A stretch of 26,451 bases of DNA from a virus. Under the pieces are notes generated by a model that saw only the letters and a list, made by a program, of their open reading frames with translations, was not told the DNA's origin and ran no database searches. The first letter of the stretch is position 1. Every line of letters starts with the position of its first letter. Below, piece after piece: positions 1-17,903 of this stretch. The stretch spans positions 13,136 to 39,586 of the IMG/VR virus record IMGVR_UViG_3300002242_000001; one strand, 5' to 3'. The translations under genes and the position numbers were made by a program.

Positions 1-625
1 AGATTTTGTACGATTCCTTTCCCTCATTTTATATCTGTGAGTTACGAGGTTACATTCTGGACACAATACATGTCTCATATGAACCAACTTATAGAAAAGT
101 TTGTTAGTTCATACACAGGGAACAGGAATCAATTTAGAATCGAGACAGATAAAGGGTATTGGTTTGTTGCATATCCTGCAAACAATGTTACAAATGCAGA
201 CAACTTTGATGACTTCTCTCAAGAAGAAAGAATTGTAAGATATACTTTTAACATGACAGTGCCTGCATATATTGTCGCAACTCAAAATCCAGGGCAGATG
301 GCTCCTGTAAGAAGATATGTTTCTGCCCCCAATGTTTCCTTTGATATCTACACTGCGAATGCCCCTATTGTCGAGCACCCGCCGACACTACCTGATCCGA
401 ACAGGCGATATAGATAAATTCATTCTATCTGATGCTGAGCAGATTGATACAGCAGGAAACGTAGTAGAAGATCCCAGATTAACGTATTTAAAAGCTGTAA
501 ATAAGATCAGAAATCCCTTCTCCGGCAAGGATGAAATTGAATATCTTAAAGTATTAACAAGAAATCAACGCCAAGGTGAAACTGTAGTTAGCGCCAGAAT
601 AATAGATAAGATTGGAGAGATCTGA
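1..625 (+). CDS. gp15-like tail completion / sheath-stabilising protein (5' partial, one frame break)
   Basis: The frame is open from base 1, so the N-terminus lies upstream and the GTG at 37 is probably internal. About 207 residues are visible. The segment PFPHFISVSYEVTFWTQYM, followed by MNQLIEKF, matches what I recall of T4 gp15 (P-S-P-I-x-x-x-Y-E-L-x-x-F-T-R-Y, then an MxQxxE helix). A later R-x-x-F-x-x-x-V strand also fits. Gp15 caps the tail tube and sheath and joins tail to head. Its position directly before the sheath gene fits that role, although in T4 gp16 and gp17 lie between. The frame changes from frame 1 (stop at 415-417) to frame 2 near 403: dropping one A gives PDPNGDIDKFILSDAEQ without a stop, ending in TGA at 623-625. 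The C-terminal part has no motif that I recognise. The assignment rests on remembered family patterns and gene order. Confidence 0.66.
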
Positions 626-651
626 GGATATTTGCCCTCGCTCTCTATAAT
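624..651 (+). promoter_or_regulatory. Candidate late promoter of sheath gene 1
   Basis: A TATAAT hexamer at 646-651 lies in the 66-base gap before sheath gene 1. No convincing -35 hexamer is seen 17 bases upstream, which resembles T4-type late promoters that rely on a -10-like box alone. The upstream string GAGGATATTTGCC (624-636) has a close counterpart before the tail tube gene (6926-6940). A start point around 658 would leave a leader containing the AGGAG ribosome binding site at 678-682. Confidence 0.45.
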
Positions 652-691
652 TATTATGTTATCATAGCGATCGCTGCAGGAGATTAATCAC

Positions 692-3600
692 ATGGCAGAA
701 AAGACTTTTAGATCTCCAGGAGTATTCCAACAAGAGGTAGATTTGACGCAGCGCGTTCAAGCGCCACTTGGTACTCCTGCCGGAATAATTGGAACATCTC
801 AAAGAGGTCCCGCCTTTGTACCCGTTACAGTGGGTGGAATGGCTGATTTTAATACAAAATTTGGATCTTTGGATTCAAAGATGTTTGGACCCTATGCTGT
901 TAATGAATTTTTAAGAAATAGAGATGCAGTAACTTATGTTAGAGTTTTAGGTGGTGGGGCAAATTCATCCACTGCAGATATTTCAACAACTGAAACGCAA
1001 GGATCTGTAAAAAATAGCAGGATTTGTACTCGCGCCAGTAGTATCTGATCCTCGACAAGTAAAGGGTGCGACACAGATATTGGCGGCTCGCCACTATGTT
1101 TCTGCGTCTGAAGTCTACTCTCCTCGATACTTCACTGACAATGATTCTTTCCCAGGTGGTGGTGCAGATGGATTTGTTAACCTAGTAAGAGCAGTTATCT
1201 TTACTACGAATACTTCTGCTGTAGGTGTGCTCAGCGGTTCAGAATTTGCTAGCGCTCTCAACACAGACAACCCTGTGGGTGATGCAGCTACCCTTGGTGC
1301 TGAAGGCGCGATGAAGAACAAGTTTAAGCTCTTTATTTCTTCTTCTTCTGATTCTTTTGCAACTTCTGACTCTCAAGCTGGAGTCAAGGTATTCACTGCT
1401 TCGCTGGACCCAAGAAGCAGAGACTATATTAGAAATGTGCTAAACACAAATCCTGATAAGTTTGAAGAGGAGCAACATCTTCTCTATGCTGCTTACGATG
1501 TTGAAGCTTCTTTAGCTGCTGTTACCAATACTGGACAAGCTGTTGCAATGCTGTCAGGATCTTCAAATATATCTACTAATAATACAGCAGGTCAATCATT
1601 CTTAAATTCATTTGGCCGATTTGATACAAGGTACACCACCCCACGAACCACAATGTTTATCTCCCAACCCTTTGGAAACAAAGAGTTCGATCTGTTTCAT
1701 TTTTGAATCTCTTGATGATGGTGCATATTCAAACGATAAAATTAAGGTTTCAATTGCGAATGTTAAGGGTTCTACTGATCCTCTTGATCCTCATGGAACG
1801 TTTACAGTTTTTGTTCGGAAATATGATGACTCTGATAAGTCACCTGAGATTCTTGAGCAATATCCAAAACTGTAACTTAAATCCAGATTCTGAGTCTTTT
1901 ATTGGGGCAATGATCGGTGACCGCCGCCTTAAGTTCAATTTTGATGCGTCCAATGAGAATGAGAGAAAAGTATATGCAGTTGGATCGTATCCTGCCAAGT
2001 CCAATCTTATAAGGGTTGTATTGGGTGATGAGCTTTCAAATGGTGATGTTCCAAAGTCTAGCCTCCCCTTTGGGTTTAAGGGCTTACCAGTACTTAAAAC
2101 AAATGATTCTTTGACTGATATCCCTACTGGGTTTTCAAGAATGTATGCTGACGGATTCCAAGATGGAACTCCCGGGTCTATGGAAATATCAGGATCTATT
2201 CTTCCCCCTGTTCCGTATGTCTTCAAGGTAACAAACGGAGCTGTTTCTGAATCACCTTCCTTCACAGGCGACCCTGGATCACTTGAAAAAGTAGATGCAC
2301 AGATTTACTGGGGCATAAAGACAACTCTTCTTGCACCTGATTCTGAGATTCACCCTACAGAAAATGGAGCTATTGGCGATTCTAACCTAAGATCTAATGT
2401 GGATGGCGGAATTAACAGAGGCCTCCAAGATATGCTCAAATTCTCAGGAATTGAGTTGATGGATAATCTGGTAACAGGTTCAGGTCAAAATACATTCAAT
2501 AATAATAAATTTACCCTTGGTAGAGTTGCGCTCTCAGCCCAGGCCGGGGGATCAGATACAGGCTTCTATAACGATACTGAAATTACAGGTGCTGCTGGAC
2601 CTTACATGAGAGACGCAGCTTATTTAAGAGATGCGGACCTTGACAATGTTTCTTATGTTGCAACTGACGGAACAAGAGCTAATAGAATTACATTCGCAAC
2701 TCTTGCAGCGCAAACATCTTCTGTAACATTTAATAAGTTTACAGACTTTGCCAAGTTTACTAACGTTTTTTACGGGGGCTTTGACGGTCTTAATATCTTG
2801 GACCGCGATGCTTCTAGAATGAACGATAAATCGATATCTGTTGACGAAGGAGCTTCTGCTGCTTTCACGTCCCCAGGCCTTGCTTCAAATGTAGCAGGAG
2901 CAGGTATTGATAACAACGGAATCAATTCTTACAGAGCAGCTGCCCTTACAATGCTAGACCCTTATAGAACAGATATTAATATACTGGCCATCCCCGGTGT
3001 ACGTGAACCATTTGTCACAGACTTTGTCTTAGATAAGAATACTGACTATGGAATGTCCTTCTACGTCATGGATATTCCCGGATATGATTCAAGTGGTAAC
3101 AGGCTTTATGACGACTCCGCAGCAAGGGTTGAAGTTCAAAAAACAACTGCGGTATTCGAAGGAAGAGCAGTTGACAACAACTCAGCAGGAACCTATTTCC
3201 CTGATGTATCAATTGTTGATGACGCGAACAATAGAATAGTAGATGTTCCATCTTCTGTGGCAGTTATGGCTGCTCTTGGTTTTACAGATGCAACTCGTTA
3301 CCCGTGGTTCGCCCCTGCAGGTTTTGATAGAGGCTCTTTGGATAATGTTGTTTCTGCAAAGTCTCGCTTAAATGCAGCAGATAAAGATACACTATATGAC
3401 GGAAGAATTAATCCTATTGCAACTTTCCCACGCCTTCGAGGTGGAAGTCCTGGATACGTGATCTTCGGGCAGAAAACTCTACAGCAAGCACGATCTGCGC
3501 TTGATAGAGTCAATGTAAGAAGAATGCTTCTTGATGTTAAGCGTCAAGTTGTCAATGTTGCAAATAACTTTGTTTTCGAACAGAACACACCTGCGTTAAG

Positions 3601-3820
3601 AAAGAAATTCTTGTCCCAGGTTACACCTCTTCTTGCTGCAGTTCAAGCACAAAGCGGAATTGAAAAGTTTAGAGTGATCATGGATGAGTCTAATAATTCA
3701 GCTGCTGACATTGAAGAAAATAGGCTGAATGGAAAGATTGTAATTGTTCCGACTAGAGCAATTGAATTTGTTTCTCTTGACTTTATCATCACAAGTGCTG
3801 GTGTGAGTTTCGAAGAATAG
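692..3820 (+). CDS. Tail sheath protein, copy 1 (gp18-like; three frame breaks)
   Basis: This is the major contractile sheath subunit, which polymerises around the tail tube and contracts to drive infection. The start ATG has AGGAG at 678-682 with 9-base spacing. The N-terminus carries the sheath pattern GTPAGIIGTSQRGPAFVPV, then FGPYAVNEFLRN and TYVRVLGGG. The C-terminus carries YPWFAPAGFDRG, a QKTLQQARSALDRVNVRRML segment, and PTRAIEFVSLDFIITSAG. All are matched by copy 2 downstream. The gene runs through frame 2 (692-about 1009), frame 3 (to about 1704), frame 1 (to about 1869) and frame 2 again (to 3820). Deleting one base in A6 (1009-1014), T5 (1700-1704) and A4 (1866-1869) restores one 1041-residue protein, far longer than T4 gp18 (about 660 residues). 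The extra length lies in the middle, where sheaths usually carry surface insertions. As written, the longest intact piece is 1703-3820. The breaks look like artefacts because the restored sequence aligns with copy 2 across each one. Confidence 0.9.
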
Positions 3821-3838
3821 ATATATATGAATGATATT

Positions 3839-3842
3839 GGAG
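3839..3842 (+). promoter_or_regulatory. Ribosome binding site deciding the start of sheath copy 2
   Basis: GGAG lies 7 bases before the ATG at 3850 but only 1 base before the in-frame TTG at 3844. The ATG is therefore preferred, giving a protein that begins MAENIPGV, parallel to the MAEKTFRSPGV start of copy 1. Confidence 0.6.
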
Positions 3843-3849
3843 TTTGAGA

Positions 3850-6800
3850 ATGGCTGAAAATATCCCTGGCGTACGCGCACAAGAGATCGACATTTCTAAT
3901 CCTACCCCTAGCGGAATCGAGGGTATTCCTGCAGGTGTGATTGGAACTGCCTTAGAGGGGCCAGCATTTGTCCCTGTCACAGTTTCTAATTTTGCAGATT
4001 TCGAAAATATATTCGGAATGACTGATAAAGTCAAAGAGAAAAGCCTCTTTGGGCCAGTCGCCGCAGAACAGTGGCTTCGAAACTCTAATGCTTTGACATA
4101 CGTTCGTGTTCTGGGAGCTGGCGACGGCAAAACAAGGAACACTAACGATACAGTAACTAGCGCCGGATTTACCGTCGGCGCCGAATTACCTCAAGATACC
4201 GGATTCTTAGGGGCGAACGATTTCGCAAATGAAAACGGGACACTCGGCAGAGCGTATTTCTTGGGCTGCTACATGTCAGAATCAGCCGGATCAACAATAT
4301 TTACAGACGCTGGCATCCAGGTTCATCCCACTGAGCGCGCCCACCCAATTTTGAGAGGCGTGCTGTTCGCTGCTTCTGGAACTTCACTTACACTTTCTTC
4401 GTCTAACGGGGTTGCAGATAATACTCCTGGCACAGACTCTACTACAGCATCCAGCGTCGGATTTATAACAGGTACAGTTAATTTTGACAATGGTTCACCT
4501 CGATTTACCCTGCTTATAAAAGGGCTTAAGAATGATGACAACAATACTATTACATCATCATTGGACCCAACAGACAAGAATTACTTTCCAACTATTTTCA
4601 ACACAGATCCCAGTAAAATCCAGGAAAGAGGTCATCTTCTTTATACACACTATGATGTTTACCCACAGTTTGGCGCGGTAACAGGATCAGGGCTCACACA
4701 AGCTGGACCTGACATGGTCAATAATGCTGCCGCTGATACCTATGTTGGATCATCTGACTGTGTATTTCTTACAACAGGGTCTACAGCAAGAAATACCCTT
4801 TCTGGCGACGCTCCCAATTACGAAGGTTTTCAAAATAGGTTTGATCATGCTAAATCTCCGTGGGTTGTGTCCCAGAAGTTTGGTGGATCCGCTAAGAACC
4901 TATTTAGAATTCATGCTGTTGGTGATGGTGTAATTAAGTCTAAGGCATCTGATCCACTCGGTGCAAATACTAAGTTTAAGATTTCCATTGCAGATATTAG
5001 AAGCGACAAAGAAACATTCTCTCTTTTGGTGAGAGATTTTTATGACCAGGATCCACCTTCTAAGCAGAATGTTCTGGAAAGCTATACAAACCTTAGTTTG
5101 AATCCAAGCTCTGATCGATATATCGGTCGAGTAATTGGTGATAGAAGAACTAGCTATGATTTCGACCAGCCATCTGGGTTCCAAAAAATTATCATAGAAG
5201 GAAAATACGCAAATCGATCTAGAACAATTAGAGTTGAACTCTCACCTGATTTAGAAAATGGCGAGATCGATTCTACAGCATTACCCGTAGGATTCCGCGG
5301 TTTAGATCACTTGATCACATCTGGTAGTAATCCTTTGACTGCTGTTCCAGACAATGATCTACAGTTTGGAACAACTGATCTTCTCAAGCAGGCTATCGAG
5401 CCACCAACACCATTCAGACAGGATCTGCTATTAAATTCAGGATCTTCCACTGTAAGGGCAAATTCAGACCTCATGTGGGGTGTTCAATTTCAAAGAAAAG
5501 TTGAGCTTGCAAATCCAAATTCAGACACCCAGTCTGATAAGACAGTATTAAATCTCACTAAGTTCTTCCCTAACTTCTATGGTGAAAATAGCGCCAACAT
5601 GAACGTAACAACAGGGTCAAATTCAGGTCAAGCAGACGCTGACGGTATCGTTTTCGACTCTGATAGATTTAACAACAATGGATTCTCTCTTGAAAATATC
5701 CAGGTTCGAACTGGTTCAAACGGTTTTCCAGATTTCGAAGCGGATGGTCTAAAAGAGTGGAAATATGTAAGGCAGGGAAATATTGTAGCAAATGAAACTG
5801 CAAAAACTAGAGCGTGGATGGTTAGCGACACTAACGGCAATGCTAAAGCTTCACAAGCGTCTAGATTTTCATTCCCAATTCAGGGTGGTTGGGACGGAGT
5901 AAACGTCTTCAATTCAGATTCTGCTAACTTAAATGAGAACGCAGCTAAGGGTGAAATGGACGATGCCTCTAGAGGTCAAAATGATGGACCTACGGTTTCT
6001 GCATACTTCACTGCCCTGAATGTAATGGCAGACAAATCAGATGTTGACATCCAGTTGTTAGCAATACCTGGAATTCGTCAAGAAACAATCACAGATCAGG
6101 CGATCATCAAGGTCGAAGAGAGATTTGATGCTCTTTATATCATGGATATTGAGGAGAGAGATAACGTAAATACAGTCGTTACTTCTTCGGCGCAAAAAGA
6201 AAAAGTCAGTGTAAGCAATACTGTGACTTCTTTTACAGCTCGATCCCTTGATTCTTCGTTCGCAGCAGCATACTTTCCAGATGTTACTTTGTAATGTAAA
6301 TACAGAAGACACTTAATTCTGAGACGAGAACATTGAACGTGCAGCAAGTACCCGTACGTAGTACCACCCTCAGCTGTGGTCCTTGGGGCATTTGCGGCTA
6401 ACGATCGAATTGCTTTCCCGTGGTTCGCACCTGCAGGATTCACAAGAGGCGTCCTCGGAGGAGTTATCGCTATTCAAACAGCACTGAATAGGGATGATCT
6501 TGAAGATCTTAACGTTGCAGATATTAATCCAATTACAACGTATCCAAATACTGGACCAGTGGTCTTCGGACAGAGAACACTGCAATCTGCAGCTTCTGCA
6601 CTCGATCGAGTTAATGTTCGACGACTACTGATTGACGTCAGGCGCTCGGTCCGCCAAGTTGCTAACTCGATCTTGTTTGAGCCCAACAGAGAGGCAACAC
6701 TGGCAAGGCTTAGCGCTAAAGTTCGTCCAATTTTACAGAATATTCAACAGAACGCAGGTATTGATAGATTTAAGGTTCTTATCGATGCTTCTACGACTAC

Positions 6801-6918
6801 ACAGGCAGATATTGAAAACAACACGATTAGAGGAAAGATTTTCCTCCAGCCGACAAGAACAGTAGAGTTCATCTCTCTTGACTTCGTTGTCACAAATTCA
6901 GGCGTGGAAGGAATTTGA
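3850..6918 (+). CDS. Tail sheath protein, copy 2 (gp18-like; three clustered frame breaks)
   Basis: This is a paralogue of the preceding gene and shares its N-terminal block (GIPAGVIGTALEGPAFVPV, FGPVAAEQWLRN, TYVRVLGAG). It also shares the C-terminal block (FPWFAPAGFTRG, ASALDRVNVRRLLIDVRR, PTRTVEFISLDFVVTNSG). It starts 29 bases after copy 1 ends, so the two are probably co-transcribed. The frame is open to TAA at 6292-6294 and resumes in the same frame by 6364. Between these points the reading passes through frames 2 and 3: three single-base excesses near 6292, 6313-6314 and 6360. Removing them gives YFPDVTLNVNTEDTNSET, then RTLNVQQVPVRVPPSAVVLG, which aligns with the YFPDVSIVDDANN...VPSSVAV region of copy 1. 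The restored length is about 1021 residues. As the sequence stands, the pieces are 3850-6294 and roughly 6376-6918. The middle of the protein diverges from copy 1, so the two could form different parts of a mixed sheath or alternative sheaths. Confidence 0.9.
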
Positions 6919-6925
6919 TAGACAT

Positions 6926-6959
6926 GAGAATATTTTTGCCTGTAGCATATATTTATAAT
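6926..6959 (+). promoter_or_regulatory. Candidate late promoter of the tail tube gene
   Basis: TATAAT at 6954-6959 sits inside TATATTTATAAT. About 14 bases upstream lies GAGAATATTTTTGCC (6926-6940), resembling GAGGATATTTGCC before sheath copy 1. A start near 6966 would leave a short leader with AGGAG at 6972-6976, 6 bases before the tube ATG. A separate strong promoter would fit the high copy number needed for a tube protein. Confidence 0.45.
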
Positions 6960-6982
6960 GAGAGAGATGTTAGGAGCTTGTA

Positions 6983-7474
6983 ATGGCAGAGACACTATCA
7001 GTTGCAGAGATGCTTCCAAACAAATTTGAGCCGAAGCGCAAGTTTCGATGGGTTTTCGCTATTGAGGGAATCGACGCATTTTTAATGAAGTCGGCAGCCC
7101 GACCACAGATGCAGACATCTGAGCAAAAAATTCCGTTCATTAATCACACACGTTACGTTACAGGGCGATATGAGTTTCAACAGATGACCGTGAATCTGTA
7201 TGATCCAATTGCGCCATCAGGTGCACAGCAGGTAATGGAGTGGGTTAGAACTCACTTTGAATCTGTTTCTGGTCGTGCTGGATACGCAGACTTCTATAAG
7301 CGTGACTGCCAGATCAAGATGCTTGATCCAGTAGGAACTGTAGTTGAGCTTTGGGACGTGAAGGGCGCATTTATTCAGAGTGCAAATTTTGGTTCTGATC
7401 TTGATTATAGCACAGAGGCACCTGCAGAAATCGCCCTCACACTCCGCTTTGATAACGCTGTTTTACAATACTAA
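6983..7474 (+). CDS. Tail tube protein (gp19-like)
   Basis: This is the 163-residue subunit of the inner tail tube, through which DNA passes. The length is that of T4 gp19. The pattern also fits the family: an N-terminal leader, KFRWVFAIEGIDAFLMKSAARP, IPFINHTRYVTGRYEF, a central VNLYDPI, and a C-terminal beta region with MLDPVGTVVELWDVKGAFI and EIALTLRFDNAVLQY. The order sheath then tube is the T4 order (18, 19). The frame is intact, unlike the neighbouring sheath genes. AGGAG at 6972-6976 supports the chosen ATG. A 154-base non-coding gap follows, so this is probably the end of a transcription unit. Confidence 0.92.
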   Translation: MAETLSVAEMLPNKFEPKRKFRWVFAIEGIDAFLMKSAARPQMQTSEQKIPFINHTRYVTGRYEFQQMTVNLYDPIAPSGAQQVMEWVRTHFESVSGRAGYADFYKRDCQIKMLDPVGTVVELWDVKGAFIQSANFGSDLDYSTEAPAEIALTLRFDNAVLQY

Positions 7475-7506
7475 TCCTGATTTAAACTAGATCTTTTCTA
7501 GGGTGA

Positions 7507-7536
7507 GCTTTAATCAAGTATTTTCTTGGTTAAGCC
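7507..7536 (+). terminator. Hairpin after the tail tube gene, possible terminator
   Basis: GCTTTAATCAAG (7507-7518) pairs with CTTGGTTAAGC (7525-7535), giving an 11-bp stem with one bulged T, one G-T pair and a 6-base loop. The T-rich tract that follows is weak (CTACCTTTGTC), so this is not a classical intrinsic terminator. A smaller CTAGA/TCTAG hairpin lies just before it (7487-7501). Confidence 0.4.
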
Positions 7537-7595
7537 TACCTTTGTCTAAAGATTTAAAGTAGACGGCTATAGTTTAACGCATTACAATCTTTAAC

Positions 7596-7607
7596 ATACA
7601 ATATAAT
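7596..7607 (+). promoter_or_regulatory. Candidate promoter ATACAATATAAT before the hub assembly gene
   Basis: TATAAT occupies 7602-7607. The full 12-mer ATACAATATAAT recurs exactly at 17892-17903 before the DNA polymerase gene. The ribosome binding site AAGGA (7617-7621) lies 7 bases before the ATG at 7629, so a transcript starting near 7614 would have a short but usable leader. Confidence 0.45.
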
Positions 7608-7628
7608 TGCAATTGAAAGGACACGAGT

Positions 7629-8725
7629 ATGTCTAGAAACAATGATATCTTCACCACAGCAGGCATGCATGAACAGATGATGCAGCCTCCAATAGAACGA
7701 CTTGAACAGGATTTAGGATTCGAGATACCTGTCGAAGAAGTTCCTCTACCCTCTCAGGGATTAGCATATCCACCAGGGCACCCGCTCCACGGAAAAAAAT
7801 CTGTTTCAATTAGGGCAATGACGGCAAGAGAGGAAGATATCCTCACATCTCGTGCGCTAATCAAGAAGGGGACGGTTATCTCTCACCTTCTTTCTTCCTG
7901 CATGATGGATAAATCTGTAGACACAAGAGGAATGCTCTCAGGAGATCGTGCTGCTGTCATGGTCGCCCTGAGAATTACGGGATATGGAGCAAATTACGAA
8001 GTTTCGATAGACTGTCCCGCATGTGAAACAAGTCAGTCTCCCGAATATAATCTTGCTGATCTACCAATTAGGACACTTGACATTGCGCCTGTAGAAACAG
8101 GAGTCAATCTATTTGAGTTTAAGCTTCCTGTCTCTGGAAAGAAAGTTCACTTTAAGTTTATCACAGGTGAGGACGAAGAAGAGCAAGCTACTTTTGGCAG
8201 ATAGAAAAAGAAAGCAAGGAATGGTAGTAGAAAGCCTTGTCACAGATCGTCTACAGCGATGCATCGTCTCTATTGACGGAGAAACCTCAGGTGGCAAGAT
8301 AAATCAATTTATACGAAATATGCCTGCTAGGGACTCTCTATCCCTGCGGCGCTATATTGATGCTCACGAACCTACAGTTATAATGGAAGCTCCTTTTGAA
8401 TGCGTTAGTTGCGAACACGAAGAGGAGATCGGCCTTCCCATGGGCCCAAACTTTTTTTGGCCTGACTCCTAGCGATAAGGAAATCTATCTTGAGCAATCT
8501 TTTCTTTTGATGTATTATGGTGGCTTTACTTACACAGAGGCATATAAGCTACCCATCACTTATAGGAAATGGTTTATCGATAGAATAAATCAAGAGTTCA
8601 AAAAAGCCGCTGAGGCAGGTCAGCAAGCCCAGACACGTGCTGCTCATCAAAACGACCCTATGACAAGAACACTTACTGGTAAATCCAGAGGAGAATCACC
8701 TTCTAGGATTAGAAGATTTACGTAA
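7629..8725 (+). CDS. Baseplate hub assembly protein, T4 gp26-like (two frame breaks)
   Basis: The N-terminal half carries VPLPSQGLAYPPGHPLHGKK, SIRAMTAREEDILTSRALIKKG, then GDRAAVMVALRITGYG and a CPAC pair (C129, C132). The C-terminal half carries NMPARDSLSLRRYIDAHEP, a second CVSC pair near residues 257-260, and LPMGPNFFG. This arrangement, ending in a C-x-x-C...P-M-x-x-N-F-F segment, matches what I know of T4 gp26-like baseplate hub proteins encoded just before the tape measure. The gene goes frame 3 (to about 8195), frame 1 (to about 8458), frame 2 (to 8725). Removing one base in TTTTGG (8192-8197) and one in T7 (8452-8458) gives one 364-residue protein. It is longer than T4 gp26 (about 208 residues), with an extra Lys/Arg/Gln-rich tail. 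The two Cys pairs could bind one zinc ion, which is inference. Confidence 0.75.
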
Positions 8726-8792
8726 GTGCATATTTAATAATTGCTGGCACAAGCCAATATATACCAATTCCCTACAGAGAGTGAACTAGCAG

Positions 8793-10875
8793 ATGGCTGA
8801 ACTCAACGAACTATTAGAACAGTTAAAAGATCTTGCGTCAGGGCCAGCTCTCCAATCTGTTGAGCATCTAAGGGATCTTAGCAGGGTAATAGAAAAGCTA
8901 AACGGTCAAGAACTGAATTTTGCTAACAAGGAATACCTAGAGACTATTACTAAAAGAGCGAATGAGCTTGAAAATGGATTAGTTGGTCTTTCTTCCGCTC
9001 AAAAAGGTGTTGCTGCAGGTTCTAAAAATATGGCTGATAGCATTATGGCATCTCTGCCATCTTTTGCCGGAGGTGCCATCTCGATTGGAGCCATAACAGC
9101 TGCAGTAACAACTGCGGACAAGGCTTTGAATAAGCTGACACTTGGAACTATTCCAAAAGCTCTGAAAATGGCAGGCGCAAAATTAACTGCCGACGAAATG
9201 AAGTCAGCTACCTTGACAATGCTAGGTACGTATGACAGCCTTATCATACCTCTCCAACAAAAGCAAGAAGATGCATTTGCGACACTGTTCGGCGGAATCA
9301 GAGATACTGCAGGAGTGCTTGATGATGAAACCCTCGGGGGAAGATTTGCTAAGTCAGCAGAACAAGCCTCGATCAAAGCCGACGCTATGGGAAGAGCTGT
9401 AGGTAACACTACTAATTCATTTAGGTTTCTTAAGCCCGGGATTGCCGGCGCGACCGAAGCAATGGAGATTATGGGTAAAATCGGTGGTCAACTCACTGAT
9501 ACTATGTTTTCAATGGGTGAAGATATATCCAAAGTGAGCCTCCTGAATCTCATGAGGTTTCGAAATGCTTTGAATGTCTCTGACGAAGACATGGGCAAAT
9601 TCGGTAAACTAGCCGCCGCGACAGGAACCACGGCATCAACTCAATTTATGAGAGTTGAACAAGCGGCAACTGCTATGTCAAAGGCCACCGGAATCAATGC
9701 GAAGGTTTTAGCTACTGATCTTGTAAAGATGAGGGCAGATTTTAAAACCTTTGGATCATTCAGCGCAGATGAACTTGCCAAAGTTGCAGCACGAGCTAAA
9801 TCGTCTTGGCGTGGAAATTACTAAATTAACGGGCCTTGCTGATAAGTTTGATGATTTTGATACTGCAGCTGAGTCTATGGCAACACTTGCGCAGACAATG
9901 GGTATTAATATCGATGCTTTCGACATGTTCCAGGAAGAAGACCCGACTAAGCAACTGATCATGATCCGTCAAGCTTTCCAAGCTGCAGGTCAAGATATCA
10001 CCCAAATGAACAGGAAACAGCGAAAGATGATCGCTTCATCTCTCGGGATGGATCTTGCCGAAGTATTTCCTGCACTATCTCCCCAGGCAGTAAGGGGCGA
10101 AGAGATAAGAGATAAGATCGACGCTGTTCCTGAGACTGCCGTTAAGGGCCTCTCCAACGCTATCGATAAATTTAACCTATCTGTCCCTGCGCAAGCTCAA
10201 GAATATTTCGAAGGCCTCACAGGTCTAATGACCACCCACAAGGCCACAACCAAAGAGCTCCAAAAAGCAACAGCACAAAACGCCCTCCTTGATCGAGAGA
10301 CGAGAGAACAGATGTCCTTGGCAACAAAAGGAATCGTGGGAATGATGGACGCAGCAAACTTGGCATTCTCTGGCATGCCCAATTTATCAAAAACATTTCA
10401 AGGAAAATTGCTTGGAGTAACAGAAAAAACTATTGAGACTATTAATAAAGATCGCAAAGCCGCGCTTGGTGGAATATTTAAAACAGTCAAGGATGCTACA
10501 AATTCTATAGGTAAGCTAACAGCAGCTGGAATGAATGTTTTAGTCGCCGGAAATGATACTGAAGCCCAAGCTGCAGCACGTAAACAATTCAGGTCTGTTG
10601 CAGGGACAGTAGGTGCAGATGTTTCAGGTGCGGCGATGACCGCGCAAAGAACAGTTCAGGCGCAGACTCGCATTGCCACCCGGACAGGAGTTAACGCCGC
10701 GGGTCTCACGTCTGATATCGGACGTGAAATCCACACGCACATCACTGTTGAGCTAGACGGTGAGGTTGTAGCACGCAACACTTTGAAACAAAACCTTAAC
10801 GGACAAACTGTGGCAGAAAATATGGGAACTGGAAAAAATCCTGTAGTAAATCAAAACGTTGAGCCCGGAGGATAA
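8793..10875 (+). CDS. Tail tape measure protein (gp29-like; one frame break)
   Basis: After repair this is a 693-residue, mostly helical, Ala/Lys/Gln-rich protein. It has one hydrophobic stretch (residues 88-107, SLPSFAGGAISIGAITAAVTT in outline) and repeated amphipathic helices. It sets tail length and leaves with the DNA at infection. T4 gp29 is about 590 residues. The C-terminus contains a short beta segment, HITVELDGEVVARNTLKQ, of a kind often seen at the end of tape measure proteins. The frame shifts from 3 to 1 near 9798-9800: removing one A gives ELAKVAARANRLGVEITKLTG and avoids the stop at 9822-9824. As written, the pieces are 8793-9824 and 9751-10875. The ribosome binding site is weak (GAGAG, 8778-8782). 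The position between the hub assembly gene and baseplate genes supports the call. Confidence 0.8.
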
Positions 10876-10881
10876 GAAGAA

Positions 10882-11103
10882 ATGACGAACAATCCTTCTG
10901 ATAAAAAAGATGTCTCTGAAGCTTATAAGATAGTTATGAATAATGAGCTTTATAGCACTATCATCAACTCTATCTCTGATCCTGATTCTAGGCAGAGAAT
11001 AGAGAGCGCTGTTGAGGAATATGTTGCTGCCTTAGTGGAAGGACTCGCGAGGGAAAACAATCGATCCCTCAAAGAGACCCCTGCGGCCACAAACAAGGAA
11101 TAG
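10882..11103 (+). CDS. Small acidic protein of unknown function
   Basis: A 73-residue protein with no recognised family. It starts 6 bases after the tape measure stop, with GGAGG at 10867-10871, and ends 12 bases before the next baseplate gene, so it is translated within the tail operon. Residues 8-60 look like two or three charged helices (SEAYKIVMNNELYSTIINSI, then RQRIESAVEEYVAALVEGLA), followed by a polar tail. No signal peptide or membrane segment is seen. By position it could be a small assembly chaperone or tail component. Confidence 0.7.
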   Translation: MTNNPSDKKDVSEAYKIVMNNELYSTIINSISDPDSRQRIESAVEEYVAALVEGLARENNRSLKETPAATNKE

Positions 11104-11115
11104 AGGATATCAGCG

Positions 11116-14100
11116 ATGTCTAATGACAACGATACAAAAAAGGTGATAATACCTGTCAATAAAGACGGCAACGGCGGACTATTAAATCGCCCGTTTCCAT
11201 CACCTGAGCTTGACTATGATACGTTAGTCACACCCGAAACAGACATGGGAAGTGATATCCCATATCAAAGACAGGAGCCGGAGGAAGGTACTGAGCCTGT
11301 AAGTGTTGTAGGTGCACGGAACAGGTTCTTTAACAGGGCAACCAAAACAAACAAATACTACCCGGATAATTCTCAAGCGCTTAGGTCTGAAAATGAGTTT
11401 TCAAGCCCTGCTGCTTTAGATTTTCCGTCTACTGCGCCTATACGCCTTGGAATGCTTTTAAAGAAAGGTCTCCCAGGTCGGAGAACTACAGATCAGCCTG
11501 GAGGAGACACAGATCTTAAATCCGCGTATGAAGAGCTGGATCAAAATACAGAAGGTCAATCAACTATTCCTCATGCCAGGTATTTTGAAGCAGATAATAC
11601 TCCTGCTCAAGGTGGGCCAGGTAGTTCAAATGATATACTATCCAATACGATCCAGGGCAGTGTGCTATCTCAAAATCGATTCTCTGTGATTGGGGACGAT
11701 AATGAGCCAAATGTTTTCGATGGAAACAGAATCAGCCAGGACAATAGTCTAGATGAAAACTTCGATCAAGATTTTGCAGTTTTGCAAGAAACCCTAGGTG
11801 TCAATGATAAATCTTCTCCGGCTTTAACGCTAGAGGAGATGAAAAGCATTGCAGTTAAATTAATAGAAAATGCAGTCAACAAGACCGGCCCAGGGAACAC
11901 AGCAAACGATAATGTTACAGACGATTTTGTCAAAACACCTTCACTCAATATGTCAGCTAAGAATGTTGTTGCTCAAAATCGCAAATCAGCAAAAGGATCT
12001 TACGGGGCTTTTAACGAAACAGGAAGTGAGACTTCTTACGGTCAAATGAACTCCCCTAGCAGTAAGTTTGATGGCATGGACGATCGACTTGAAGTTTTCA
12101 CAGCTTTGACGCTAATATCTGCAACAGTTGCTATCGTAAATGATAAAATTGTAAATTCAGCAGGAGTACGCCCGCAGGGAATTAAACCTACAAGGAACAG
12201 TTTTAATGATGCTATAAGCAGAGGCGTTGAAATATTTTGCGGTGTATCCCTTTCAGGCAAAAAGGTGGAAACGTCAGATGCGAAAATAAACATCAGAGAA
12301 AATCCTGGTTTTTATACTGTTTTCGCTCGATCCATCATGAGAGATGTTATTGATGTGGCAGAAAAGTTTAGGGATGATGCACCCATGGGTTCCGCCCCAG
12401 ACACACAAGGAACCAATAATCTATTGAAAGTTCTGAGCAACTCTAAAGTAATCTCAGCAATTAATGTTTTCTCTGCTATCGGGGATATCGCGCTAGATCA
12501 AGAAAAGGGAATATACGACATAAACAGGATACGAGGAAGCCTAGCAGGATTTTTAGATCTGGCATCAGCGGCATCTCATAAGAGCAAGAGAGACTCTTCT
12601 AACGTAGTTTACGGTGACTCGAAAGACATGCCATCTCCTAACGATCGCAGGCTTGCATGGAGAGGAAGCTCTACTCCCTCTTTGTTTTTACTTCCTCCTT
12701 CTGTGGAATTTGCACACACAAATACTGGGCAAAGCAGTTTGATATCAACAGCCCATTCAAACTTGCACTCAACAACGATTGTAAAGCCTAAAAAGATTTC
12801 CAAAGAGGATGTAGTAAGGCACGAGCGCAGGCTTGATGCTGAATATGTACCTTTTTACTTCCAAGATCTTCGAACTAATGAGATTGTTTCTTTTCACGCG
12901 TTTCTATCACAGCTAGACGAAACCTACTCACCAAGGTATCAAGATTCCTCGATGATGGGAAGAGCTGATCCCGTTAGGATTTATCAAAACACAAGTCGGC
13001 AAATCAACTTGAGGTTTGTTCTCGCAGCAACTTCCAGAGAAGACTTTAATGAGATGTGGATGAAGTTCAATAAGATGATCACTCTTCTATATCCCCAGTA
13101 TTCCAAGGGAAGAACAACCAAGTCAGCTGATGGGAAAACGAAGATTACGATGCCTTTCTCGCAAGTGATGTCTGCGTCCCCTATGATTCGTCTAAGAGTA
13201 GGTGATGTGATTAGATCTAATTATAGTAGGTTTAATCTTGGTCGCCTCTTTGGTGCCGGAACTGTAAATTACAATCCAGGAAATATAAAGCTTGCCACTC
13301 AATTCTTAGCTACACAGGAAGTTCCAATACCTTTTGTTAATGGTGAAGTTACAGCAACTGAGCAGCTTCTTGAGAGTTTGATCAGCTTAAATAAAGCTAT
13401 AATGGCTCCAGAAATACTCCGGGGCGCCGCAAATTTTGTCGACGCGCTCAAGCTCGTTGTAACAAGAGCACGAACAAGACCTACTAGTGCAGCTCAAATT
13501 TCTCTTACTGGATTGACATTTGGAGATGTTGTTCGAATTCCATACCCAGAGGTCCGCTCTCTTAAAAAAGCACCCGAAGAAGATCAGTTTTCTTCAGTCG
13601 CTAATTTTGCAGGAGCAGATCAGTCAGATGAGTTTCACTTGCCTTATCGAGATGTCTATGCGAGAGTGCTAGGAAAAATGACAGACACAGATGATGTTGT
13701 CAAATACAAAGTAGCACTCTTTGCTGATGCTAGTATTTTTACGCCGCTTGCAGGAACAATTGGAAATGTTTATCTGCTTGATCATGGGGATATGCAAGTT
13801 TTTGCATCCGGGCTTGTTCTTGCAAAAGCTGCCCTTCTTGGATTAAAGGGAACAACGGGCGCCGTTTCTGCAAATATTCCAGGTAACGGAACTTTTGCTG
13901 CCGGTGTGGGCGTAGACTACTTTAGAAGAGCTACCAATTTCTTGAGACCAGAAAACAATGCAGTCGTTAGATCTTTTGAAGAAGTCGGAGGCAAAGGATT
14001 AGCTGGCTTTATCACAAACATGCAAATGGGATGGATTAAAGATAATTCTGTCTGGGAGACAGATTTAGATGCCCGAGCCCCAAAGACGTTCGAGATCCAG

Positions 14101-14394
14101 ATGACGTTTTCACCAGTCCACGATATTGCTCCAGGGTTGGACCACGATGGATACACAAGAGCAATCAATTATCCTGTTGCAGAATCTTCAAATATTCTCG
14201 CAGGTGACCAAAGAAGAATTGACGAAGCAAGTCAAATAGCAAAGAAGCATGACGCACGCGCCTCAGGTGCGCGCTATCTTCTCGATGCAGATTACGTAGA
14301 CGAGACAAGAGAGCTTGGCCTAAGACAAGAACAAGACGAGTGGGACGAAACATCTCTCGCCGCAATGAGGCTTCTTGGCAAGGCAGTGAGGTAG
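11116..14394 (+). CDS. Large baseplate/tail structural protein
   Basis: This is a 1092-residue protein in one intact frame. AGAGGA (11102-11107) lies 8 bases before the ATG. Residues 1 to about 500 are polar, rich in Asn, Asp, Ser and Pro, with no recognised fold. From about residue 520 the pattern changes: FLLPPSVEF, VPFYFQDLRTNEIVSFHAFL, YSPRYQDSSMMGRADPVRIY, then RQINLRFVLAATSREDFNEM and FNKMITLLYPQY. A Y-x-G-R-(A/S)-(D/E)-P-V-x-x-Y block followed by an I-x-x-x-x-x-L-x-A strand and a helix ending LLYPQY is known to me from virion structural proteins of large marine T4-like phages. The final 400 residues add further beta-rich segments. The flanking tape measure and gp53-like genes place it in the baseplate or hub, but the exact T4 equivalent is not recognised. 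Confidence 0.7.
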   Translation: MSNDNDTKKVIIPVNKDGNGGLLNRPFPSPELDYDTLVTPETDMGSDIPYQRQEPEEGTEPVSVVGARNRFFNRATKTNKYYPDNSQALRSENEFSSPAALDFPSTAPIRLGMLLKKGLPGRRTTDQPGGDTDLKSAYEELDQNTEGQSTIPHARYFEADNTPAQGGPGSSNDILSNTIQGSVLSQNRFSVIGDDNEPNVFDGNRISQDNSLDENFDQDFAVLQETLGVNDKSSPALTLEEMKSIAVKLIENAVNKTGPGNTANDNVTDDFVKTPSLNMSAKNVVAQNRKSAKGSYGAFNETGSETSYGQMNSPSSKFDGMDDRLEVFTALTLISATVAIVNDKIVNSAGVRPQGIKPTRNSFNDAISRGVEIFCGVSLSGKKVETSDAKINIRENPGFYTVFARSIMRDVIDVAEKFRDDAPMGSAPDTQGTNNLLKVLSNSKVISAINVFSAIGDIALDQEKGIYDINRIRGSLAGFLDLASAASHKSKRDSSNVVYGDSKDMPSPNDRRLAWRGSSTPSLFLLPPSVEFAHTNTGQSSLISTAHSNLHSTTIVKPKKISKEDVVRHERRLDAEYVPFYFQDLRTNEIVSFHAFLSQLDETYSPRYQDSSMMGRADPVRIYQNTSRQINLRFVLAATSREDFNEMWMKFNKMITLLYPQYSKGRTTKSADGKTKITMPFSQVMSASPMIRLRVGDVIRSNYSRFNLGRLFGAGTVNYNPGNIKLATQFLATQEVPIPFVNGEVTATEQLLESLISLNKAIMAPEILRGAANFVDALKLVVTRARTRPTSAAQISLTGLTFGDVVRIPYPEVRSLKKAPEEDQFSSVANFAGADQSDEFHLPYRDVYARVLGKMTDTDDVVKYKVALFADASIFTPLAGTIGNVYLLDHGDMQVFASGLVLAKAALLGLKGTTGAVSANIPGNGTFAAGVGVDYFRRATNFLRPENNAVVRSFEEVGGKGLAGFITNMQMGWIKDNSVWETDLDARAPKTFEIQMTFSPVHDIAPGLDHDGYTRAINYPVAESSNILAGDQRRIDEASQIAKKHDARASGARYLLDADYVDETRELGLRQEQDEWDETSLAAMRLLGKAVR

Positions 14395-14398
14395 ATCG

Positions 14399-14695
14399 AT
14401 GACAATCAGAAGATATGTTAGAGACGGTACAGTTTTAGGTGGCAAAGCCTTTGGGACATCCGCAGCGGTAAATGCCATACGTCAGAATATTCGCCAGGGA
14501 AATATTTCGTTTACTGTCCAAAATTTGGCAGAAGCTCAGAGGCTAGACGTTCTCGCAGGAGAAGTTTATGGCGATGCATCCCTGTGGTGGGTCATTGCTG
14601 CTGCTAGTGATATTGGCTGGGCCTTGCAGGTTCCTCCTGGAACATTCTTGAGAATTCCTACTGATCTTAGCGAGATCGGAGATCTGGTGTCATGA
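14399..14695 (+). CDS. gp53/LysM-like baseplate wedge protein
   Basis: A 98-residue protein whose C-terminal half has the LysM-like baseplate pattern: RLDVLAGEVYGDASLWWVIA (residues 48-67), then SDIGWALQVPPGTFLRIP (70-87). In gp53-type and related baseplate proteins, the L-A-x-x-x-Y-G-D-x-x-L-W-W-x-I-A segment and the G-x-x-L-R-I-P end form this small domain, which holds wedges together. T4 gp53 is about twice as long, so this is a minimal version. GAGG at 14388-14391 precedes the ATG, and the stop overlaps the next start (ATGA at 14692-14695), indicating translational coupling to the hub gene. Confidence 0.75.
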   Translation: MTIRRYVRDGTVLGGKAFGTSAAVNAIRQNIRQGNISFTVQNLAEAQRLDVLAGEVYGDASLWWVIAAASDIGWALQVPPGTFLRIPTDLSEIGDLVS

Positions 14696-16014
14696 GTGGT
14701 ATTAAATTTCCTGTGGTTGGAGGGCTAAATTATCGAAAGATGAAAGAGGCTGCAGCACAACTGAAGAATGTGACAGGATACGGAGGCATCATCGCTAACG
14801 GTAGTATCAATCCATCTGGAATGAAGACTTCTGCTCTCACTGACTCTGCAAAAAATGAACAAGATCTTGCTGCGATGGAAGATCTGCTTGGATATGACAT
14901 TGATGGCGCGCATGGCATAGATCACATAATCGACCAGATAAAGCAAAAGGGTGGTAAATTCGAATCCGATTTTGTTAGAAATAATTTTGAGTTTTATACT
15001 GAGAGTGCGAATAAATTAAAAGACGGCCCGCGTGTCCCAGGTATCGCTACTGAGCCAAACCACGAATTTGAAATGCGTATGGTTGCTCCTCGAATTGTAA
15101 TAACAGAGCCACATGGATTGCCGACAACAGAGATTGAACTTGGAGATAGACGGACTTCAACTGACTCTAGAGTTGTCCACAAATCCAATAATGAAATATC
15201 AGTTAAAGGTCAGTGGCACCGCGATGCTTCAAAAGATGATCTTCCCAAGTTAAGCTTAATCAATGTCGTAAATGGAAATTTTACTCCAACAAGTAAAAAC
15301 ACAGATGTTATTGAATTATTCATGAATTCTATTCCTACACACGAATTTTCAAGATGTGTTCCGTTTTTAGATGTTGTTTTTGAAGTAAAGACTGACAAGA
15401 AAGATAGCAAAGGCCGCCGATATGGATTGAGCCTTCACAGTGTTACTGAAGGCGGGAAGCCTCCAATTCCAGGTTCGGGAGACGCAGCATTGGCTGATAA
15501 TGTCCCGACTGGATTGGGTGAAAACAGCGAACAAGACAACAGTCGATATACGTTCGGCATGGAGATGTTTACATCACCCCAGACGTTCGCTCCAGTTTCA
15601 ACTGAGGCAGGAAAGCTTAGGATTGAGCCTGTCTTAGATCCTTTTCGACCATTTATGTCGATAAAAAGTTTTGATGTGAACCTAAACCCTGTAGCAGGTG
15701 GCTTTTATCAAAAAACGATGGCAACTTTAGGCATAGTTTTGCATGACAGATCTAGGATGCATGAGATTGCCCATTTAGTCCGCCCAGATAATTTTAGTTC
15801 CAACAAGATCTATATTGAATACGGTTGGTCTCATCCAGACGGGAATTTAGCAGGAAACAAAAATCCTTACGGTGATTTCTTGAACAGTCTAAGGCAGAAA
15901 GGAAAGTGGTCTCTTTATAATAGTAGTTTTAATTTTAGACAAGATGGGCAAGTAGATATTTCTCTCCATTTGGCAGGGCTCGGAAATAAAGCAGCAGAAA
16001 CCATGACCATTTGA
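14692..16014 (+). CDS. Baseplate hub-like structural protein, N-terminal part
   Basis: A 440-residue frame overlapping the previous stop by 4 bases, with GGAG at 14678-14681. Residues 320-440 contain MSIKSFDVNLNPVAGGFYQK, LGIVLHDRSRMHEIAHLVRP, IYIEYGWSHPDGNL and FRQDGQVDISLHLAGLG. This succession of beta strands with I-x-I-E-Y-G-W is what I associate with hub proteins of large myophages. The frame stops at TGA 16012-16014. Frame 2 is open from just after TGA 16004-16006 and leads straight into the next entry. Deleting one base at 16009-16012 gives ETMTFDGNEYISDLGTNMMK, so the two entries are probably one 1042-residue hub protein. Two separately translated proteins remain possible. Confidence 0.7.
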   Translation: MSGIKFPVVGGLNYRKMKEAAAQLKNVTGYGGIIANGSINPSGMKTSALTDSAKNEQDLAAMEDLLGYDIDGAHGIDHIIDQIKQKGGKFESDFVRNNFEFYTESANKLKDGPRVPGIATEPNHEFEMRMVAPRIVITEPHGLPTTEIELGDRRTSTDSRVVHKSNNEISVKGQWHRDASKDDLPKLSLINVVNGNFTPTSKNTDVIELFMNSIPTHEFSRCVPFLDVVFEVKTDKKDSKGRRYGLSLHSVTEGGKPPIPGSGDAALADNVPTGLGENSEQDNSRYTFGMEMFTSPQTFAPVSTEAGKLRIEPVLDPFRPFMSIKSFDVNLNPVAGGFYQKTMATLGIVLHDRSRMHEIAHLVRPDNFSSNKIYIEYGWSHPDGNLAGNKNPYGDFLNSLRQKGKWSLYNSSFNFRQDGQVDISLHLAGLGNKAAETMTI

Positions 16015-16048
16015 CGGTAATGAGTATATATCTGATCTAGGTACGAAT

Positions 16049-17821
16049 ATGATGAAAATTGAAAGTGCTGTATTGTCCTTGTTGAGAACCGAAGGTTTGG
16101 GGAAAGAAATTGCTCCTGAGTATGTTGAAAAGGGCTCTCTTGGAAAAGCATTGAGCTCTTTTACACCTGCTGCAGTCAAGGAAGTTCTAGATAAGATTGA
16201 GAAGATGGGCACGAAAAACAAGGGAAAAGTAGAACCCACAGTCAAAGAATTGAAATCAAATTTAATTCAATTTCTGGCTGCGCAAGAAGAGTTCAGTTCA
16301 TCGTCCGACCTAATAATTGACTTCCTTGAACAGCAAGTCCTCAAGCCGTCTTTTGGATCCGACCCATTTTTGCACGAAGCACTTCGACAAAGCAACATGA
16401 TGTCAATTAATGAAGATTACTTTTCTTCACCTGTTAAAAAACAAGATCGGCAAGAAGGAAATGCGCCACACCATCCTGGGTCTAGAGAAAATGATGAACC
16501 GCCTCAATCCCCCGATGGAGAAATTTTATATGACAAAGTTCCATTCATCAGCTTGGGGAAAGCATTGTCTGTCTTTGTTGGTCGCCCATTAGCAGCGACA
16601 GGAAAGTTTCAAGAAGTACAAATGTTCTTTTATCCGTTTGCCCTTCGCCACGGCGGCCCCATGAGCATGAATGAATTGACTACAGCTGAATTTCTAATGG
16701 ACAAGGAAGACCTAATGGAGGGAATCAGGCACGTGATGACCACATATAGAACCGCTAGTATTCCAATCGAAACCTTCATCGCCTTCGTTGTTCAAAATTT
16801 TGTTAACTTTATCGGATCTCCCCAGTATGGAATGATGAACGATCTTGACATATATCAGAATATCGAAAATGGAAAAAGGCAATCTTTGGTTGAAGCTGAG
16901 TCAGGACAATCTGATATTAAAAAATTAAATGACATTCAAAAGAAAAGAATCGACACAATGAACGACAAGTTGAGCGATTTCTATTTCCCAAAGATCGCTG
17001 TCGAGCTTGAATCAGTTCCCAGGATTCCACGCCCAGGTGAATCAAAAAAGTCTGCAGAGCAAGATTCTATTCTAAGAATTCACGTGTATGACACACATGC
17101 TGGGAAGCAGGAGCCTTACGAGAATCTAATCGAAGCCTCAATCGAAAATTTAACAACTATTAAACAAATTGAGAAAGTTCTTGCTGGAAAATCTAAGGAA
17201 GAGAAAAGCATTAAAGGTGAGAAGCAGATCGATGCTTATCGGTACTTCATGCTCAACAAGTTGATTCAAGAGCTCGCTGAAGAACATCCAAAAGGCCTGA
17301 AGCCCCTCCGAGAAGGGTTAAACTCTCAAGTTAAAGAATTTATTGTTGATCTCCCTTACGAGACTGTTAAAAAGAAGATCGCAGGTCAGTTTCCTTACGT
17401 CGTTTACGGCACAGAGGCTTCGGCAATAATCAGCGCTAACTTTAGATCTATTCAAAACCCACATCACAAGAATGTAATTCTATCTCAAGTAGGACGAAAC
17501 CCAGAAACCGCAGCAAATGGTCTGGGCAGTGACGGTCTTCCGATTCGTACCACTCCTGCCGGGCTTAATTTGACAACTATGGGATGTCCCATGTTCAAAT
17601 ATAGCACAGCGCTATTCTTTGACTTTAAGACAGGGACTACTATAGACAACATCTATTATGCGAAGAGCGTGCGTCACAGTATCACCCCGGGTGAGTTTAA
17701 AACTCACATAGATGTGAAAGTACGAAATGCCGACGGAAAATATCGAAGCTTATATAGTCTTCTCAAGAACGCTATTGAATACATTGATAACAATACTGAA
17801 GAAGCACCAGGTTCTGACTAG
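16049..17821 (+). CDS. Baseplate hub-like structural protein, C-terminal part
   Basis: A 590-residue frame beginning ATGATG with only a weak AGGT upstream, which supports its being the continuation of the preceding frame. The last 130 residues have the hub-like pattern ASAIISANFRSIQNPHHKN, LTTMGCPMFKYSTALFFDF, TGTTIDNIYYAKSVRHSI and TPGEFKTHIDVKV. The motif L-G-x-P-x-x-x-x-x-x-x-F-F-(I/D)-D-F-x-T-x-T-x-x-D-N-x-Y followed by H-x-I-x-P-G-x-F is familiar from hub proteins. Residues 330-430 are charged and probably helical. The stop codon lies inside a perfect hairpin (17818-17837) that closes the structural gene block. No signal peptide or lysozyme-type domain is seen. Confidence 0.7.
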   Translation: MMKIESAVLSLLRTEGLGKEIAPEYVEKGSLGKALSSFTPAAVKEVLDKIEKMGTKNKGKVEPTVKELKSNLIQFLAAQEEFSSSSDLIIDFLEQQVLKPSFGSDPFLHEALRQSNMMSINEDYFSSPVKKQDRQEGNAPHHPGSRENDEPPQSPDGEILYDKVPFISLGKALSVFVGRPLAATGKFQEVQMFFYPFALRHGGPMSMNELTTAEFLMDKEDLMEGIRHVMTTYRTASIPIETFIAFVVQNFVNFIGSPQYGMMNDLDIYQNIENGKRQSLVEAESGQSDIKKLNDIQKKRIDTMNDKLSDFYFPKIAVELESVPRIPRPGESKKSAEQDSILRIHVYDTHAGKQEPYENLIEASIENLTTIKQIEKVLAGKSKEEKSIKGEKQIDAYRYFMLNKLIQELAEEHPKGLKPLREGLNSQVKEFIVDLPYETVKKKIAGQFPYVVYGTEASAIISANFRSIQNPHHKNVILSQVGRNPETAANGLGSDGLPIRTTPAGLNLTTMGCPMFKYSTALFFDFKTGTTIDNIYYAKSVRHSITPGEFKTHIDVKVRNADGKYRSLYSLLKNAIEYIDNNTEEAPGSD

Positions 17822-17837
17822 GGTCCACCGACCCTAG
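17818..17837 (+). terminator. Perfect 8-bp hairpin at the end of the structural block
   Basis: CTAGGGTC (17818-17825) pairs exactly with GACCCTAG (17830-17837) around a CACC loop and includes the TAG stop of the hub gene. The nearest T-rich run (TTTTTCTTC, 17865-17873) is about 28 bases downstream, so it is not a classical intrinsic terminator. It could instead stabilise the 3' end of the message or act as a processing site. Confidence 0.5.
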
Positions 17838-17891
17838 GCAACCCAAGTTTAATCTAGCTTATAATTTTTCTTCAATGTAAACTTGATATGA

Positions 17892-17903
17892 ATACAATAT
17901 AAT
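17892..17903 (+). promoter_or_regulatory. Candidate promoter immediately upstream of DNA polymerase
   Basis: ATACAATATAAT is an exact copy of 7596-7607. TATAAT ends only 5 bases before the polymerase ATG at 17909, and no Shine-Dalgarno sequence is present. A second TATAAT lies at 17860-17865. If the nearer box is the -10 element, the transcript would start at about the ATG and be leaderless. Confidence 0.45.

Follow-up and report, generated by a model that had tools for sequence, protein, structure and literature searches.

A conserved site for a putative +1 frameshift in the gp26-like tail gene of T4-like phages, in a viral record with many private frame breaks

We analyzed a stretch of 26,451 nucleotides (the window) from the T4-like phage record IMGVR_UViG_3300002242_000001 of IMG/VR, equivalent to positions 13136 to 39586 of a record of 78,377 bases. 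A preliminary description, made from the letters of the window, had listed eleven reading-frame breaks in its first 16 kb and explained them as artifacts. It is very probable, taking the evidence together, that ten of these breaks and one further break near base 9 are errors of this record, and that the break at 8452-8458, within a gp26-like gene, is a conserved programmed +1 ribosomal frameshift. The artifact explanation thus held for the ten breaks that are private to the record and failed at 8452-8458, where the frame change was conserved in 76 of 76 related loci; likewise, recoding had been rightly set aside for those ten and wrongly for the conserved one.

Results and Discussion

A gp26-like gene continued in the +1 frame

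The frame change at 8452-8458 was shared with the related loci L003, L004 and L005 when the frames around the site were printed and, being common to relatives, it differs in kind from the private breaks. Eighty loci with a gp26-like part were collected, 76 of which were usable (three ended too early and one had no second part). In every one of the 76, the second part of the gene, hereafter the C-domain, was found in the +1 frame. The frame encoding the gp26 family (PF12322) ended three to six codons after the start of a TGG codon, past TTTTTTTGGCCT or a close variant. The site read TTTTTTTGG in 59 loci, TTTCTTTGG in 14 and TTCTTTTGG in three, and was followed by CCT in all but one (75 of 76). 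Past the site, frame 0 remained open for 3 to 6 codons and the +1 frame for 71 to 119 codons (74 continuations ended and two ran off the locus), and the -1 frame shut after two codons in 59 loci and by 40 codons at the latest in the remaining 17, leaving no -1 continuation. The putative slippery site was conserved and stood ahead of the first stop.

Two further searches returned the same arrangement. In all 31 loci found with the C-domain alone, the domain continued a gp26-like gene in +1, and the site was TTTCTTTGGCCT in 29, TTTTTTTGGCCT in one and TTTCTCTGGCCA in one; one of the 31 came from a contig assigned to a Flavobacteriales genome bin. A 19-base pattern, GTTTTTTTGGCCTGACGCC, matched at least 120 stretches, of which 80 were examined (six already-known loci and 74 new ones). 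Among these listed matches, in 72 of the 74 new loci a gp26-like gene ended at the pattern and the domain followed in +1, and the other two ran off the contig. The samples overlapped, as 3 of the 31 loci and at least 10 of the 74 were on contigs already counted. The cultured phages Mel-JY01 and immuto had the same arrangement; LIS04 gave a weak C-domain match (E value 0.008, with Z set to 1000), and in HTVC008M gp26 was found with no C-domain match at E <= 1. The site, the +1 frame and the gene order were conserved in this group.

The TTTCTCTGGCCA variant, in L260, was situated at the same place and would require a slip on the first TTT. Annotation of the continuation differed between the cultured phages: in Mel-JY01 (L220, 3764-4000) it was annotated as an overlapping hypothetical gene, and in immuto (L221, 3750-4013) it was mostly unannotated.

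Constraint on the site and alternatives to a +1 shift

Among 66 non-redundant loci the 12-base site was nearly invariant, third codon positions included. Its proline codon was CCT in 65 of 66 loci, compared with a share of 0.30 to 0.44 for the commonest codon in eight other conserved proline columns, and its first phenylalanine codon was TTT in 63 of 66, compared with 0.54 to 0.70 in three other phenylalanine columns. Part of this constraint arises because two frames are coded at once, which itself needs both to be translated.

It is unlikely that the C-domain is instead a separately started gene expressed without a frameshift, in the manner in which cyanophage gp51 and the Mel-JY01 reading frame were annotated. 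A possible start codon (ATG, GTG or TTG) was present in the +1 frame before the domain in 30 of the 76 loci, and the window itself carries one, the TTG at 8396, so a separate start would be compatible with the window sequence taken alone. However, in 46 of the 76 loci the +1 frame contained none of these three codons from the preceding stop to 12 codons beyond the site, in 72 it contained no ATG, and in 50 a +1-frame stop was located at most 14 codons upstream of the site; the near invariance of the 12 bases, down to third positions, argues in the same direction.

The same frame would be reached by a -2 ribosomal shift, and 59 of the 76 sites contain a run of seven T on which RNA polymerase might slip, but we consider both routes improbable. 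The TTTCTTTGG sites (14 of 76, and 29 of 31 in the C-domain search) and the TTCTTTTGG sites (3 of 76) have no run above four T, and at TTC TTT TGG a -2 move would land the tRNA on TCT. A P-site tRNA on YTT could re-pair one base forward on TTT in all three main variants, which, with the short T runs, favors a +1 shift over transcriptional slippage. Besides the possible start codons, two negative results weigh against a programmed +1 shift: no Shine-Dalgarno-like enrichment was seen upstream of the site, and no clear RNA structure was found downstream of it (mean z -0.39 across 40 loci).

Identity of the two protein parts

The N-terminal part belonged to Pfam PF12322, T4_baseplate (gp26), with 59.8 bits against a cut-off of 24.5, a score obtained from relative L005 (9980-10840) and not from the window's own broken gene. 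In a separate search over whole records, PF12322 was not matched at E <= 0.01 in either of the distant phages Mel-JY01 and immuto. In BFVD, an AlphaFold model of this part (mean predicted local distance difference test score, pLDDT, 86) matched hub proteins from the baseplates of other phages. When 993 PDB chains were re-aligned with it, the two top-ranked were the HK97 tail assembly chaperone 2ob9 (Z 6.0, 84 residues, 4.2 A) and YqbN 3klu (Z 5.9), which we take to be a tail assembly chaperone as well. The fold match is a weak one and tempers this assignment, since a Z of 6 is below the tool's caution limit of 8 and Foldseek gave 2ob9 an E value of 3.4.

The gene is situated between a tail tube gene, recognized by its PHROG match, and a tape measure gene, recognized by synteny with Flavobacterium phage immuto, in which the gene after gp26 is annotated 'tail tape measure protein'; that annotation is the basis for naming the window gene at 8793-10875. 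This is the position in which genes for tail assembly chaperones occur. The second frame overlaps the end of the first, is open, and is conserved without a start of its own, though 30 of the 76 loci have a possible one. Both the gene order and the fold are suggestive of a tail assembly chaperone produced in short and long forms via programmed +1 frameshifting.

The C-domain was modeled as a helical hairpin (mean pLDDT 75) and matched no Pfam or PHROG family at the thresholds applied. Two further results weigh against the proposed reading: the domain alone had no BFVD match at E <= 0.001, and its profile was not significantly similar to that of T4 gp51 in hhalign. The cyanophages P-SSM2 and P-HM1 provide the connection. 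Against the T4 gp51 profile their -1-frame peptides scored 36 and 35 bits (best shuffle 12.6); against the C-domain profile the same peptides scored 16 bits (best shuffle 7.6). As these peptides match both profiles, the C-domain is most likely the C-terminal domain of gp51, an identification made through the cyanophage peptides alone.

Private frame breaks across the record

Breaks were checked by comparing the record with proteins of related IMG/VR contigs, by tblastn first and then by frameshift-aware alignment. Seven of the breaks first noted were private one-base surpluses at places where relatives have uninterrupted frames (near 403 and at 1009-1018, 1700-1704, 1866-1870, 8190-8197, 9792-9804 and 16009-16013). 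At 9792-9804 the relatives were 27-37% identical, and one of nine (L019) read two missing bases instead. The patch at 6292-6360 was indeed disturbed, but the claim that every break is repaired by removing one base did not survive there: four of five relatives (L005, L002, L141 and L147) fitted one missing and one surplus base, and the fifth (L044) fitted three surplus bases. Apart from the break at 8452-8458, which relatives share, the eleven breaks were private to the record, and a twelfth had been overlooked near base 9, at the left edge of the window beside an N at record position 13135.

A curated list for the whole record comprised 34 breaks, 27 of them single surplus bases and seven others, so the bias toward insertions was strong, as first described, but not uniform. 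Nine breaks were located in record positions 1-13135, ten in 13136-29149, none in 29150-41888 and 15 in 41889-73052. Confinement to the first 16 kb was therefore true inside the window, where 16,015-26,451 was free of breaks as stated, but not of the record, which has breaks both 5' and 3' of the window; they reappear at record position 41889, equivalent to window coordinate ~28754 and ~2.3 kb past the window end. Candidates upstream of a start codon or in regions of low identity were dropped before counting (record 4169, 5239, 7194, 13811, 16977, 40975-40978, 44198, 44907, 47313, 53806 and 67354).

Under a strict test restricted to the sense strand, to proteins of at least 150 residues and to breaks supported by at least three loci, the record had 15 breaks in 65.3 kb, compared with a single break over the 1,980.8 kb of the 136 related loci; 135 of these loci were free of breaks. 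At the rate of these relatives 0.03 breaks would be expected, and the 15 observed exceed chance. A looser test on both strands, antisense frames included, gave 27 breaks in the record and 97 in 2,074 kb of the 136 others; the strict count is preferred, since the looser one is inflated by shadow frames on the antisense strand. L087, a related contig with eight N bases, had no frame break under the strict test. The preliminary description had placed most breaks in homopolymers, which was not borne out: a run of at least four bases was found within 4 bases of 6 of the 27 surplus-base breaks, compared with 10% of random sites, a weak enrichment. Surplus bases at three places (record 6881, 7169 and 7530) were absent from L140, a relative with 93.1% DNA identity; the one at 7169 is upstream of the first start codon in the capsid gene. 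Three more small gaps in the L140 alignment (record 10654, 10661 and 10703) were left uncounted. They are near the end of an open reading frame (ORF) resembling a homing endonuclease (PHROG 3339; record 9217-10629, 5' of the window), which is situated directly after the major capsid gene.

The ten breaks of the window fit an artifact because they are private, biased toward insertion, without a common site, and in genes otherwise under purifying selection. The ratio of nonsynonymous to synonymous substitution rates (dN/dS) was 0.03-0.19 in five broken genes, and two more were saturated at synonymous sites. The private breaks are most likely data errors from an insertion-prone read or consensus step. 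Such errors would be mostly single surplus bases spread over the record, in coding sequence and in at least one non-coding place, and in unrelated contexts. Two observations sit less easily with this: seven of the 34 curated breaks are not surplus bases, and no near-identical record was found in the phage collection, nor did a 42-base pattern across one break match in viral contigs (where close records may be omitted), so a very recent real origin may remain for single breaks.

Genuine breakage in a decaying or defective phage genome might account for the many genes hit, portal and capsid among them, and for the seven breaks that are not simple surplus bases. We nevertheless hold it to be quite improbable, as dN/dS is only 0.03-0.19 in five broken genes, relatives are intact, insertions of single bases predominate and no larger deletions were noticed. 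A join near 16 kb between two sources of unequal quality, as first suggested, would explain why breaks cease at 16012 inside the window, yet it is very improbable. In L087, L089 and L090 a single uninterrupted frame spans the equivalent of 16009-16012, breaks occur on both sides and start again from record 41889, and a break-free stretch of 12.7 kb is within chance (P = 0.051 with the 34 breaks placed singly, 0.245 with 24 clusters). The best reading is an error-rich record, and nothing indicates a join at 16 kb.

Biological recoding of late genes at all the breaks, by programmed +1 shifts or four-base decoding, could draw on the one-direction bias and on the one break that is truly conserved, but it is extremely improbable given that relatives' frames are uninterrupted at the ten private breaks, that these have no common site and a random distance to the next stop, that a search of the record gave no tRNA gene, that a surplus base also stands upstream of the capsid gene's start codon, and that DNA polymerase and other non-structural genes are broken too.

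Two specific mechanisms of this kind were rejected. The contexts first suggested stop-codon slippage at every break, but the next in-frame stop was at random distances: across 26 breaks the median was 5.5 codons, compared with 7 for simulated insertions, and it was 0 or 1 in five of the 26. Genome-wide +1 recoding like that of Euplotes, with an in-frame stop directly at each shift, did not match these distances, which were as for random insertions. Four-base decoding or a suppressor tRNA was dropped, as neither the window nor the whole record yielded a tRNA gene and the private breaks had no common word or site. Gene calls and claims of recoding made from this record call for reads first.

Gene content of the window and record

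Features of the window are listed in Table 1. The record has the gene set of a contractile-tailed T4-like phage, with portal, capsid, sheath, tail tube and a gp26-like baseplate hub, and further genes for PolA-like, gp32-like and RecA-like proteins, dUTPase, exonuclease, a DnaB-like helicase and ribonucleotide reductase. Ten N bases are present at eight places, and the window is the interval between those at 13135 and 39587, so both of its edges adjoin single N bases.

Table 1. Features of the 26,451-nucleotide window (window coordinates; L numbers are related loci)
Feature	Start	End	Strand	Remarks
Neck/tail gene, 5' of the sheath-like genes	1	625	+	Private breaks near 9 and near 403; single frame in L141, L142, L147
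Tail-sheath-like gene 1	692	3820	+	Broken at ~1009-1018, 1700-1704, 1866-1870; Pfam Phage_sheath_1C at C-terminal end, E 1.5e-6
Second large gene, resembling the sheath-like gene	3844	6918	+	Disturbed at 6292-6360
Tail tube gene, intact	6983	7474	+	PHROG 4542 tail tube, E 2.2e-27
gp26-like gene, frame 0; short form of presumed tail assembly chaperone	7629	8472	+	Private break near 8190-8197
Presumed +1 shift site	8452	8463	+	T7 run then GGCCT; kept in 76/76 related loci
+1-frame continuation, gp51-like C-domain; long form of presumed chaperone	8459	8725	+	88 codons
Frame 0 stop codon	8470	8472	+	Four codons past start of TGG codon
Presumed tape measure gene	8793	10875	+	Private break near 9792-9804; identity by position only
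Large tail/baseplate-region gene	14692	17821	+	Broken at 16009-16013; one frame, 1015-1037 codons, in L087, L089, L090
Break-free stretch	16015	26451	+	Mainly replication genes: PolA-like, gp32-like, RecA/UvsX-like, dUTPase, exonuclease, DnaB-like helicase, ribonucleotide reductase

The genes at 692-3820 and 3844-6918 are two large sheath-like genes in tandem, and relatives of one match the other too. The Pfam sheath domain was found in the first only; an 816-residue piece of the second had no Pfam or PHROG match, and neither did pieces of the presumed tape measure gene. An ORF 3' of the window (record 42947-44218) matched collagen-like tail fiber families.

Comparison with known frameshift systems

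The +1 frameshift site of prfB, encoding release factor 2, is CTT-T. Re-pairing of a P-site tRNA on CTT-T is also what the TTTCTTTGG variant would use, but the waiting codon here is TGG and not a stop, and no Shine-Dalgarno-like enrichment was seen upstream. Lambda, with the G/GT type of chaperone pair, shifts -1, whereas in the present phage the new frame is +1 and the N-terminal part is of the PF12322 family. In T4, gp26 and gp51 are separate genes. The cyanophages P-SSM2 and P-HM1 share the N-terminal family PF12322, but their C-domain is in the -1 frame at a run of six T. In P-SSM2 (L387, 896-1791) and P-HM1 (L388, 778-1658), gp26 and gp51 were annotated separately although the gp51-like domain continues in -1 across that run.

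The literature describes several related arrangements. The G-T frameshift is said to be widely conserved in long-tailed phages 'except T4' in PMC5009743, which also calls the frameshift of HSTV-2 'very likely +1'. PMC10885494, which mentions CUU_U, states with reference to Vladimirov 2022 that certain T4-like phages do without frameshifting and have two gene copies, one short and the other a longer fusion. In PMC12846349, sites of -1 shifting are reported for other families of phages, and Vladimirov 2022 is given as the source for T-rich sites of this kind in the T4-like group. The Vandenendeviridae and Andersonviridae of that paper, such as phage Adele, resemble the present group in having a T-rich conserved site that ends the short form and an open frame beyond it without a separate gene, but their shift is reported as -1 at GTTTTT, where the present site is YTT-T-GGCCT with the new frame in +1. 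A +1 shift at the same gene place, with a TTT-CGC motif, was proposed for haloarchaeal myoviruses of the HF1 group in PMC7230728; HF1-group phages and HSTV-2 are, however, archaeal viruses, likened here by direction and gene place and not by homology. A chaperone with a translational frameshift in phage Moogle is noted in PMC4319497. In the literature searched, as far as the available portions extend, we recognized no description of a +1 site in the present gp26-gp51 family.

Proposed mechanism and implications

In the proposed scheme, translation of the gp26-like frame would for most ribosomes end at 8470-8472 and yield the short protein. In others, the P-site tRNA (tRNA-Phe or tRNA-Leu, paired with YTT) would slip one base forward onto TTT while TGG waits in the A site, and the ribosome would read 88 codons in +1 to produce the long protein with its helical gp51-like C-domain. 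We postulate that the two forms would jointly chaperone tail assembly by acting on the tape measure protein, the product of the following gene; what we infer is that the slip occurs, how efficient it is and this chaperone role.

A large group of T4-like phages probably makes the gp26-gp51 pair by a programmed +1 shift at YTT-T-GGCCT, where cyanophages use the -1 frame and T4 separate genes. One pair would then have three decoding solutions, and the direction of the shift would have been switched in evolution without loss of the product. The conserved site provides a testable +1 site in a family otherwise described, in the literature portions available, as -1 shifting or as encoded by separate genes. 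If the shift is confirmed, annotation of the C-domain would be corrected from a separate hypothetical gene in Mel-JY01, and from a mostly unannotated stretch in immuto, and the family would let the +1 and -1 solutions for a single protein pair be compared as they occur in nature.

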